From the NCBI GenBank assembly GCA_033762255.1, contig JANRLT010000034.1:1-64000 (forward strand): DNA of 64,000 nt, given 5' to 3'. The notes under the pieces are model-generated. The model was not told the DNA's origin. It did not search any database and saw only the letters and a list, made by a program, of their open reading frames with translations. The position numbers and the translations under genes were made by a program. The stretch's first letter is position 1. Each line of letters starts with the position of its first letter. Of the stretch, positions 4,454 through 39,818 are shown one piece after another. The stretch comes from Pirellulales bacterium (GTDB lineage: Bacteria; Planctomycetota; Planctomycetia; Pirellulales; JALHPA01).

Positions 4454-4715
4454 GAAACAGGTTCCCTAAAATTAAGAATAGCAATACGCGGCGTAAAACT
4501 ATGTTAGCCGTCGCGATCGCCTCGATGTTCCCCAGTTGACCAGTATACGGGCCACCGCGGAGGGACACAATTGCGGGGGGGAGGTCAAGTAAATTATTTA
4601 AATTGAAAAATTAATAATGGGAAGCAGAGCATGGAAAAGAGTATTGCAGAAATTTGCATTTTAAATGGTGACGGCTCACTAGGCCTGCAGGTGACATGTT
4701 CGTTGGTTGCCTACG

Positions 4716-4817
4716 ACGTAGCCAGCAGCGTCCCGCTGCCGAAACGCATGGCAAAACTTTATGCGGCACCTAGAAGGTGCCTGTTACGTGGCCCGCAGCG
4801 TCCCGCTGCCGAAACGC
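4716..4817. repeat. palindrome cluster: two 32-bp direct repeats flanking a GGCACC/GGTGCC hairpin
   Basis: Direct repeats at 4716-4747 and 4786-4817 differ at only two positions. Each contains the palindrome GCAGCG-TCC-CGCTGC followed by CGAAACGC. Between them, 4765-4781 is another palindrome (GGCACC-TAGAA-GGTGCC) followed by TGTTAC. The second palindrome type recurs at 15387-15409 and, in a GGCAAC/GTTGCC version, at 11880 and 20673. Confidence 0.7.
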
Positions 4818-4877
4818 GTCCGAGCAAGCACGCCCAACAGATTGCGGGGGCTGAGGGAAGGAGTAGCATCGGTTAAT

Positions 4878-5012
4878 GCAGCCTGACGGTATCACGCAGC
4901 GACCAGAGGCAATTTGAGCGGGTAAAAACGGTTGATTTTGGTTCAAGCCGCTCTTAATTTCCACTTGTGGCTACGCCGCTCTGGTTGACATCCAATCTGG
5001 GCCATCTGCGGT
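4878..5012 (+). repeat. dispersed ~135-bp repeat, copy A (diverged)
   Basis: This aligns by eye with the copies at 36599, 38144 and 39679: a TCACGCAGCGACCAG block, then GCGGGTAAAAACG, GTTGATTTTGGTTCAAG, a TTTCCACTTGTGGCT block, CTCTGGTTGACA and CTGGGCCATCTGCG. It has the same orientation as the other three. It ends where the reading frame of the truncated kinase-TPR gene begins. Confidence 0.65.
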
Positions 5013-15033: not shown

Positions 15034-15120
15034 GGATAAATCGGGCCGTTGGCCCTTTCATTTTTTCCTGACCATTGACCTAGGGCGACGCTGCGCTTGC
15101 CCTAGGCTGGGATAGGTCGG
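15034..15120. repeat. dispersed palindromic repeat, second family, copy E
   Basis: The sequence TCGGGCCGTTGGCCCTTTC is followed by CATTGACCTAGGGC and its palindromic partner GCCCTAGG, then GATAGGTCGGGCCTTTGGCCC. A second, diverged copy lies at 28697-28790. The CTAGGGC/GCCCTAG arms can form a hairpin. Confidence 0.6.
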
Positions 15121-15207
15121 GCCTTTGGCCCGCAAAGGATCAAATGCCTTTGGCCCGCAAAGGATCAAATGCCTTTGGCCCACATAGGATCAAACACCTT
15201 TGGCCCA
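15121..15207. repeat. 25-bp tandem repeat, ~3.5 copies
   Basis: The unit GCCTTTGGCCCGCAAAGGAT followed by CAAAT occurs at 15121-15145 and 15146-15170 (identical) and at 15171-15195 (four differences), with a partial copy at 15196-15207. It grows directly out of the GGGCCTTTGGCCC end of the preceding dispersed repeat. Confidence 0.8.
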
Positions 15208-36563: not shown

Positions 36564-36598
36564 ATTTTAGCCCGCCGGGTCAGCCAGGGAACTTAGCG

Positions 36599-36741
36599 GT
36601 TATCACGGTTTGGCACAGCCTACCAGTGTCGCTGGCGACCAGAGGGACTTAAACGGGTAATGAACATTGATGAAGGTTCATCCTGCGATCTATTTCCCCT
36701 TGCGGCTGCGTCGCTCCGATTAACAAACAGGGCAATCCGCG
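36599..36741 (+). repeat. dispersed ~145-bp repeat, copy B
   Basis: It shares long identical blocks with copies C and D: TTGGCACAGCCTACCAGTGT, CGCTGGCGACCAG, GGGACTTAAACGGGTAATGA, AC-x-TTGATGAAGGTTCA, CTGCGATCTATTTCCC and CTTGCGGCTGCG, ending in GGGCAATCCGCG. CCAGTGTCGCTGG can form a small stem. It lies between the guaD-like gene and the sialidase-like gene. Confidence 0.8.
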
Positions 36742-36936
36742 TATCAACCTCCTAATAAAGTCCTTGTTGTTTGGTTCATTTGGTTGAATAATAAGAGAGT
36801 TCCAATAAATGCCGAATCTGGCTTCGTGCCAGGGCGCGAAACATGAGTTGATTCCGGTTTAATGGCTCGCCGAACCTTCCCCTGTTCTCCCGGTGTGGCG
36901 GAGCTTATGCCGGATCAAGATACCTTAAGGAGCTTT

Positions 36937-38130
36937 ATGATGCTCGCGTGTCGGATCCCCTTAATTTTGCTTTTTGTCATTCCCTTCGCAGCAGTGTTGG
37001 GCCAGCCAGGGTCGCCCACCTCATTGGTCTTGCCCTTGATCGACCTCGACAGCCATACACATCGTCAAGTTGTCGTGGACCGCGAGCCGGGAACATACCT
37101 TGGCCACCCGTCCACACTACTGCTCGAAGATGGCAAGACGATCTTGTGCGTTTACCCCAAGGGTCATGGGCGGGGGGCGATTATCTATAAACGGAGCGTC
37201 GACGGCGGAATGACATGGTCGGATCGGCTGCCAACACCCCAGAGTTGGGATACCTCGCTGGAGACACCGACGCTTCATCGCGTGGTCGACGCCACGGGGA
37301 GGAAACGCGTCATCTTGTTCAGCGGGCTGTATCCCGTGCGATTGGCGGTCAGCGAGGATGACGGGCAGAGCTGGTCGGAGTTAAAGCCGGTTGGAGATTG
37401 GGGGGGCATCGTCACGATGGCGTCCGTGATCGGCCTCAAAACGGGTCGCGGCCATTACCTCGCCCTGTTTCACGATGATGGGCGTTATTTTAAGAACGAG
37501 GGTAAGTCGACCGGCGTGTTCACGCTGTACCAGTCGCTCTCCCGGGATGGTGGCATAACCTGGGAGACACCGCGGGCAATCCACCAATCCGACCAGGTCC
37601 ACCTGTGCGAGCCGGGCGCATTGCGATCGCCGGACAATAAGCAAATAGCCGTGTTGCTTCGCGAGAACCGCCGTGGAAAAAATTCACACGTTATGTTCTC
37701 CGACGACGAGGGTCGGACATGGACACAACCCCGCGAAGTGCCAGGTTCCCTTACGGGGGATCGCCATGTCGCCAAATACGGTCCCGACGGTCGTCTGTTC
37801 ATTTCATTCCGTGATGCCCCCCCCAAGCACCTGACAAGCCAGACGGCCGGTGACTGGGTCGGCTGGGTGGGGACCTACGAGGACATCGCGACCAGCCGCG
37901 AAGGGGAGTACCGGGTCCGCCTAAAGGATAACCAGCATGGCTGGGACTGCGCCTACCCCGGCGTTGAGTTACTGTCGGACGGAATGTTTGTCGTAACAAC
38001 CTACGGGCATTGGACAGCGAAAGAGCCGCCGTACATCTTGAGCATGCGGTTTACCATGAGCGAGCTTGACGAACTGGCAAAGCTCAGTCTTCCAGCGCCA
38101 AAGTCTGGCCTACCCAACGAGACACGTTAG
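36937..38130 (+). CDS. exported sialidase-like (BNR/Asp-box) protein
   Basis: About 398 residues from ATG 36937 (or the adjacent ATG 36940), chosen because TTAAGGAGC lies 4-7 nt upstream; in-frame ATGs at 36862 and 36907 lack a ribosome site. Signal peptide MMLACRIPLILLFVIPFAAV, cut near LGQPG. A six-bladed sialidase-type propeller follows with Asp boxes S-x-D-x-G-x-T/S-W at KRSVDGGMTW, SEDDGQSW, SRDGGITW and SDDEGRTW. Conserved EPGALRSPD and FISFRDAPPK segments provide Glu and Arg candidates of the sialidase active site. Cleavage of sialic-acid-like or other exo-glycosidic bonds outside the cytoplasm is plausible, but the full Arg triad cannot be assigned by eye. The gene is bracketed by direct repeats B and C. 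Confidence 0.82.
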   Translation: MMLACRIPLILLFVIPFAAVLGQPGSPTSLVLPLIDLDSHTHRQVVVDREPGTYLGHPSTLLLEDGKTILCVYPKGHGRGAIIYKRSVDGGMTWSDRLPTPQSWDTSLETPTLHRVVDATGRKRVILFSGLYPVRLAVSEDDGQSWSELKPVGDWGGIVTMASVIGLKTGRGHYLALFHDDGRYFKNEGKSTGVFTLYQSLSRDGGITWETPRAIHQSDQVHLCEPGALRSPDNKQIAVLLRENRRGKNSHVMFSDDEGRTWTQPREVPGSLTGDRHVAKYGPDGRLFISFRDAPPKHLTSQTAGDWVGWVGTYEDIATSREGEYRVRLKDNQHGWDCAYPGVELLSDGMFVVTTYGHWTAKEPPYILSMRFTMSELDELAKLSLPAPKSGLPNETR

Positions 38131-38143
38131 GAAGTAGGTCAAA

Positions 38144-38312
38144 GGTTATCACCGTTTGGCACAGCCTACCAGTGTCGCTGGCGACCAGTGGGACTTAAAC
38201 GGGTAATGAACGTTGATGAAGGTTCAACCTGCGATCTATTTCCCGCTTGCGGCTGCCTGTGTTCCTGTTGCGGCAGCGCCGCCCGGGTTGATTAGCAAAC
38301 TGGGCCACCCGC
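38144..38312 (+). repeat. dispersed ~145-bp repeat, copy C
   Basis: Nearly identical to copy B for its first ~110 bp. It carries a short insertion (CTGTGTTCCTGTTGCGGCAG region) before the closing CGGGTTGATTAGCAAACTGG and CCACCCGCG blocks. It ends 6 bp from the stop of the minus-strand PEP-CTERM gene and starts 14 bp after the sialidase stop. Confidence 0.8.
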
Positions 38313-38317
38313 GACGC

Positions 38318-39505
38318 TCAGGCGTTCGACTTTCGCAGGCGAGTGACGGCCAGCGGGATCATTGGTAATAATGCCAGCAATAAAGATGAAGGTTCTGGCA
38401 CGCTAATGGGGGTCATCACGACTTCCGTTATCCCCGCCTCCATAAACGTCACACCGGTGACAAACGCTGTCGGATTAGTCGGATCGAGCATCTCACTGGG
38501 GTCGATGCCGCGAATGCTAAATTCAGAAATCCCATCGGGAACGAATGAGGTGAAGTCGAATTCAACACCGGCGGTCAAGGTAAACGCCAATGTTCCGAAT
38601 AGCAACTCAAACGTGTCGTCACCGCCCGGTAAGGCGCCGGGGATTAATACCGATCGAAAAGGGATGCTTGCGGATTCATAATCGTACCCGATAGCTATCA
38701 CCGGATCGATGTAGACGACGTCTTCTACTGTCCCTTCCGTGATGACATCAATCACAAAACCGCCATCCTCGGTCATCCCTGAGGGAAGGAGAGGAACGTC
38801 TGGCGAGGAGCCAGGAAGTGCGCCGTGTCCCCAAATAAAGCGAGCTGCGACCGAAGCAAAACCGTCCACTGCTCCGGCCGATCGACCGACCCCGGGAACA
38901 GCGATTGTAAGGGCGTGTTTTTGAGTAAAGTAAGGAGGTTCAAATGGATTGGTTAATGGTGTCTGGCCCGGGAAATTGAACTGTACGTCAATGACGCCAC
39001 CGTTGATTCCTTCGATAAATCGCAATCCTGACAATTCATCGTAAAAAACCACAGCTCCAGCGGAGTTCAATTGACTATTGCTGGCGAAGTAACGTACAAA
39101 CAAGCTGCCAGGCTCGGTGGTATTAAAAGAATAGACGAGGAAATTGCCGTTACCCCCATCCGATCCAATACTGTGACTGGTGCTCGCATTTGTAACACTA
39201 AAACCTGCACTCCATTCTCCCCACCAAAAAGGAGGTCCAAAATTGACGTAACTTCGAGCACTCGTCTCGAATCGTCCTTCTGACCGATCGATGAGACTCG
39301 ACGTTAGTCCAGCGCTGTCCCCGCCAAGACGGATCTGATTGGAAAAAGAATCTCCGTCGCTAATACCTGGATAAGCACCCACGTTTGGCAGCCAAATACT
39401 TGAACTATGGTTGATCTCCACCAGTTGATTCAGGAGTTCCGCTCGAAGTTCCAAAGGCGCAACCACAGTTGCAATTAAAATGATATATCCTGCAAAGGCC
39501 TTCAT
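38318..39505 (-). CDS. PEP-CTERM sorting-domain protein
   Basis: 395 residues from the ATG at 39505, fixed by AAGGAGCAAGCTA before MKAFAGYIILIATVVAPLEL, a signal peptide cut near LRAE; the frame is open upstream but without start context. The mature chain is beta-rich with no recognised catalytic motif. The C-terminus is a textbook PEP-CTERM tail: S-V-P-E-P-S-S, then a hydrophobic helix LLLALLPMIPLAV and basic TRLRKSNA. Such proteins are exported by Sec, anchored by the tail and processed by an exosortase, typically into an extracellular polysaccharide matrix. No exosortase is in the window. Repeats C and D lie immediately on both sides of the gene. Confidence 0.9.
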   Translation of the reverse strand: MKAFAGYIILIATVVAPLELRAELLNQLVEINHSSSIWLPNVGAYPGISDGDSFSNQIRLGGDSAGLTSSLIDRSEGRFETSARSYVNFGPPFWWGEWSAGFSVTNASTSHSIGSDGGNGNFLVYSFNTTEPGSLFVRYFASNSQLNSAGAVVFYDELSGLRFIEGINGGVIDVQFNFPGQTPLTNPFEPPYFTQKHALTIAVPGVGRSAGAVDGFASVAARFIWGHGALPGSSPDVPLLPSGMTEDGGFVIDVITEGTVEDVVYIDPVIAIGYDYESASIPFRSVLIPGALPGGDDTFELLFGTLAFTLTAGVEFDFTSFVPDGISEFSIRGIDPSEMLDPTNPTAFVTGVTFMEAGITEVVMTPISVPEPSSLLLALLPMIPLAVTRLRKSNA

Positions 39506-39678
39506 TAGCTTGCTCCTTGGGGGTAATCTCAACGTTAAACGTTCATGGATTTCGCCGCTCCCGCGCCTTTTGCGACAGAATTCTCTCGAAAATCCCATGA
39601 GATTGCTAAAGTAACACGACCCAATATACAGTTCAAGTATTTCAGCTTTGAAGTAAAGATTTTTAGCGGGTAGCCTCA

Positions 39679-39818
39679 GTTGGCACAGTCTACTGGTGTC
39701 ACGCAGTGACCAGTGGGACTTAAACGGGTAATGAACGTTGATGAAGGTTCAATCTGCGATCTATTTCCTCTTGCGGCTTTACTGCCCAGGTTGACAAACA
39801 AACTGGGGCACCCGCAGT
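39679..39818 (+). repeat. dispersed ~145-bp repeat, copy D
   Basis: The same block order as B and C: TTGGCACAGTCTACTGGTGT, CACGCAGTGACCAGTGGGAC, TTAAACGGGTAATGAACGTT, GATGAAGGTTCAA, CTGCGATCTATTTCC, CTTGCGGC, then CCCAGGTTGACAAACAAACT and GGGGCACCCGCAG. CTGGTGTCAC/GTGACCAG form a stem, and CCCAG/CTGGG forms a second one. Confidence 0.8.

Follow-up and report, generated by a model that had tools for sequence, protein, structure and literature searches.

What kind of element is the repeat of about 145 bp that recurs around a sialidase gene and a PEP-CTERM gene in this planctomycete genome, and do the genes between its copies belong to it? The first-pass annotation of the window (the whole 64,000-nucleotide stretch of DNA that was analyzed) had entertained a non-autonomous mobile element, a recombination hotspot that captured single genes, and a structured RNA. 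Our analyses make it very probable that the repeat is a REPIN-like non-autonomous element mobilized in trans by a RAYT (REP-associated tyrosine transposase) of the L014 clade, whose copies are old and have spread locally. REPs, REPINs and RAYTs have been described before (PMC2817692, PMC3116915), and the repeat described here departs from the known forms in several respects.

A mechanical repeat search and BLASTN both recovered copies B, C and D as genuine same-orientation repeats about 1.5 kb apart, the mechanical search placing their starts 1546 and 1525 nt apart. All three are full doublets on the forward strand with bounds determined by alignment: copy B (36597..36741, 145 nt) has a degenerate head, GGTTATC, copy C (38143..38313, 171 nt) has a 22-nt insertion inside its right end, and copy D (39667..39816, 150 nt) has both heads intact (CGGGTAGC ... 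GCACCCGC). Copies B and C are 96% identical over 101 nt. The decayed fourth copy that had been reported, A, is also real, being a diverged full doublet in the same orientation as the other three (4860..5010, +; 151 nt, by BLASTN and alignment) that matched D within the window at 69% over 150 nt (E 1e-18). Adjoining copy A is a 40-bp direct repeat (88%; 4708-4747 and 4778-4817) with a GC-rich hairpin, which looks like another REP type.

A genome-wide search for the ends and copy number of the repeat had been proposed, and a profile built from 11 copies identified 13 or more strong copies, all with E values of about 1e-22 or below, together with weaker fragments, in the 5.47-Mb genome; the repeat is therefore dispersed and not confined to this locus. 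The copies are mostly 60-90% alike and their ends are decayed, with heads or right ends affected in B, C and the C13 and C20 copies. The GTAG/GTGG head 5' to the palindrome is kept in most copies and in relatives, and is decayed in B and C. A subfamily comprising copy C and the C60, C40, C13:1646 and C43 copies has a right end longer by about 22 nt (TTGCGGCTGCCTGYGTTCYT), which seem to have come from hairpin 2' being duplicated in part. Copies B, C and D are intergenic, as are the clear cases among the other copies (gene calls elsewhere in the genome are rough), and further copies were found near the ends of frames; REPs near gene 3' ends have already been reported (PMC3733652).

The anatomy of the repeat is that of two inverted ends, each composed of GGGTRGC, hairpin 1, hairpin 2 and AGAGG, around a spacer of ~45 nt containing a small stem, TGAACnTT...AAgGTTCA. 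In the consensus, the left part reads CGGGTAGC, hairpin 1 (CACCGGTtGGCgcaGCCtACCGGTG), hairpin 2 (GTCGC-gca-GCGAC) and CAGAGGGA, and the mirror part reads CCTCTTG, hairpin 2', hairpin 1' and GCCACCCGCG. The left end of copy D (39667..39718, +) has the GTRG head, hairpin 1, hairpin 2 (GTCAC-gca-GTGAC) and CAGTGGGA, and its inverted right end (39768..39816, -) has a GGGTGCC head, hairpin 1 (CCCAGtTTG...CAAcCTGGG), a decayed hairpin 2 and CAAGAGGAAA. The likeness between the left half and the inverted right half was not reached by any of 500 dinucleotide shuffles in the C14 and C63 copies, which are the best preserved, and was weaker in decayed copies (29 of 500 shuffles for D, 75 of 500 for B). 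In keeping with this symmetry, the profile also matches the opposite strand of the genome's own copies.

The small stems that had been noted are borne out by covariation, the analysis of aligned copies that had been advised. The alignment was built without any structure model from 46 matches, 42 of them distinct, with some rows representing the opposite strand of one element. Across the four hairpins, 88.4% of cells were paired, against 75.0% with partners shuffled; 125 cells were changed on both sides, against 40.9, and none of 500 shuffles reached the covariation score. Sliding the partners out of register reduced pairing to below 47%. Forward, less redundant rows alone gave 88.5% pairing against 77.9% when shuffled (maximum 81.0% of 1000). 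Hairpin pairing has thus been maintained by compensatory changes, as illustrated by the co-varying arms of hairpin 2 (TCGC/GCGA, TGAC/GTCA, TTGC/GCAA and CGGC/GCCG). Taken singly, copies B and D folded as DNA no better than shuffled sequences at the 1% level, B being uninformative and D weak.

The repeat is a REPIN-like doublet. It shares with the REPIN of Pseudomonas fluorescens two inverted REPs around a spacer, apparent dispersal between genes, linkage to a RAYT, and fold-back symmetry with compensatory changes, and it differs in having two tandem hairpins plus AGAGG per end and an overall length of about 145-170 nt (PMC3116915). It is also present in 13 or so copies, whereas REPINs number in the hundreds (often over 100, which is usual and not strictly defining).

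A REPIN is further characterized by a cognate RAYT flanked by the same REPs, and such a partner was found by resemblance in the genome itself (G000) and with full elements in a relative. The genome has 11 Y1 (IS200/RAYT-like) genes, L010-L020, ten of which have inverted flanking repeats of their own type; L017 is broken by four stops. The genome as a whole is rich in REPs. L014 (contig C35, 173 aa) scored 106.8 bits against NCBIfam REP_Tyr_transpos (NF047646; cut-off 80), and its protein has the HUH motif MPDHVH and the Tyr motif YMHQNP. The 52-nt inverted repeats flanking it are 98% complementary and have the layout ACCGGGTACC, hairpin, GCGGC-gca-GCCGC, AAGAAG, which is the layout of the window-repeat ends. 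The right ends of five copies, that of D among them, match these flanks at a level reached in none of 500 shuffles. Among the 11 Y1 loci, judged against reversed controls, only the L014 flanks match both repeat ends, with medians of 35 versus 21 in the control for right ends and 30 versus 22 for left ends, all other loci being at control level. L014 flanks read GTACC and AAGAAG where the copies read GTAGC and AGAGG, and for that reason the exact mobilizer of the window repeat may be a sister of L014 and not L014 itself. The L014-type REP occurs at about 41 places in the genome (at least 41). The 1-kb flanks of these REPs had a GC content of 0.519, and those of the 13 repeat copies 0.527, in comparison to 0.558 in 200 sampled 1-kb stretches (p 1.5e-6 and 0.007, respectively). 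A different repeat in the window (GGGCCAAAGGCCC ... CCCAGCCTAGGGCAAGCGCAGCGTCGCCCTAGG, at about 15040-15131, -) also flanks a Y1 gene, L011.

Outside this genome the element is recognizable by its layout. When copy B was searched by plain BLAST against 39 genomes, only its own genome gave a match, and the exact left-end pattern had no match among 84,980 species, a set that may exclude the genome itself. By contrast, of 296 genomes from the order, the profile matched 29, its own included; the one genome of the same family that was examined matched by neither plain BLAST nor profile, and no empty insertion site came to light in a close relative. The order and phylum (Pirellulales, Planctomycetota) were assigned from the style of the proteins (DUF1559/PEP-CTERM genes). 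In the elements of relatives the layout is conserved although the sequences differ from those of the window copies, and the inverted ends are clean. The six RAYTs closest to L014 form a clade (support 95/98), and double-hairpin flanks were found at all six clade members as opposed to one of the 35 other Y1 genes among 41 Y1 loci in six genomes (p 1.6e-6). The single positive among the 35 has its element more than 1 kb away, and one clade flank, at L092, reads AAGAAA in place of AGAGG and was detected by a relaxed test that included the hairpins. Five of these genomes are relatives chosen for carrying the element, and the count therefore tells which RAYT accompanies the element and not how frequent it is. 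The RAYT L093 of G035 has full elements of ~143 nt, arranged in tandem, on either side.

The occurrence of such flanks in one RAYT clade, and of full elements adjoining a RAYT in one relative, leads us to infer that the repeat is mobilized by L014 or by a sister RAYT since lost, and of the three original suggestions it is the non-autonomous mobile element that gains support. Under this mechanism, the inverted REP-type ends, in which a GTRG head is followed by two tandem hairpins, would fold on either side of the ~45-nt spacer while the strand is single, for example during replication; a RAYT of the L014 clade (HUH/Y1 type) would recognize, cut and join the folded ends and would spread copies in trans into intergenic gaps. 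The present copies would be old and partly decayed, with near copies descending from one another. Such local spread is suggested by sequence relationships, as B, C and D are one another's nearest kin, as are the two C63 copies, and three gaps of less than 1.6 kb were seen among 13 copies where 0.05 were expected (about 1.5e-5, uniform model). The route may have been short-range transposition, gene conversion, or insertion after a tandem doubling like that in G035.

As for the genes between the copies, the interval from B to C holds a sialidase/BNR protein gene (36862..38130, +), whose start is probably at 36937 or 36940, and that from C to D the open reading frame of a PEP-CTERM-type protein (38318..39598, -). 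The earlier remark that one gene fits exactly between each pair describes a pattern that would follow from insertion of the element into gaps between genes; copy C sits between convergent genes, with their stop codons 12 and 4 bp away. Of 146 genomes sampled, 46 have a homolog of the sialidase, and the repeat was absent at 11 of the 12 sialidase loci checked. In the remaining region, in G029, an element 113 nt long lies nearby, and we rejected it as a hint of cargo in view of an apparent tRNA gene, read by eye, that separates it from the sialidase. The sialidase gene has normal GC, and the PEP-CTERM gene has distant relatives only. The idea of a hotspot that captured single genes thus fares poorly, and the status of the two genes as candidate cargo is not supported: they appear to be ordinary neighbors. 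Elsewhere, an AT-rich orphan frame of 250 aa with no Pfam match (L029:695-1447, -) stands alone between two mutually nearest copies. An open frame (40177-63999, +) begins 361 bp downstream of copy D and runs off the window after no fewer than 7941 aa; it possibly encodes a giant surface or adhesin-like protein.

Three other explanations deserve consideration. That the repeat is a structured RNA or transcript-end element (a 3'-UTR stabilizer or attenuator) kept for a host function and spread by duplication would suit stems conserved with covariation and the several copies that lie shortly after gene ends. We nevertheless regard it as improbable, and not needed: the repeat matched no curated Rfam family, a terminator-like site looked for in the copies was not found, symmetric inverted ends and RAYT flanks would be unexpected, and the copies have diverged (mostly 60-90% alike) and their ends have decayed. 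Later host use of some copies may have occurred. Equally improbable, or slightly more so, is a composite unit in which pairs of same-orientation copies form the ends of a larger element that captures or moves single genes, namely the sialidase, PEP-CTERM and C63 orphan genes. The three gene-sized gaps, against the 0.05 expected, would fit such a unit, as would the single gene flanked by mutually nearest copies in two places and the low GC (0.41-0.42; background 0.558) of the DNA that the C63 copies enclose. Against it stand the normal GC and wide occurrence of the sialidase gene, the 11 of 12 loci without the repeat, and the result that no second place with an identical gene between copies was found; to our knowledge, RAYT elements are not known to carry genes as a composite unit.

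Least probable of all, and very unlikely, is an ordinary MITE, its inverted repeats the work of an unrelated transposase and its likeness to RAYT flanks a product of common GC-rich hairpins. REP hairpins of many kinds are indeed common in the genome, but of the 11 Y1 loci a single one gives the match, at scores above those of reversed controls, the anatomy tracks one RAYT clade across genomes, and full elements adjoin the RAYT in G035.

Among known systems, GTAG REPs are on record from Planctomycetes, as are RAYT-like genes between double palindromes from other bacteria (PMC3733652). In TIRtrons, such as that of P. putida ORF 607, a RAYT-like gene likewise has two adjoining stem-loops on each side, and there are dispersed copies; compared by description only, these repeats are decayed GTAG units joined to unrelated stem-loops (PMC3733652), whereas the window repeat has both hairpins conserved throughout a planctomycete order and is linked to a single RAYT clade. 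BIMEs or "double foot" REPs of TnpA-REP subclass 2.4 have GT[AG]G and C[TC]AC at their two ends, as the window repeat does (PMC6006769), but the latter is longer, with four hairpins and a spacer. Our search of papers available without subscription found no description of a four-hairpin planctomycete family, and we accordingly take it to be a previously undescribed variant of REPINs. A position between repeats of this type does not by itself make a gene mobile cargo. Work on the RAYT/REPIN partnership has centered on Proteobacteria; the present family adds a planctomycete order, in which each end has a distinctive pair of hairpins. A RAYT cuts single-stranded REPs in vitro with the GTAG head as guide (PMC8266576), and with a clear RAYT clade and natural head variants (GTAG, GTGG and GTAC) another group can now be used to test this guide-sequence model.
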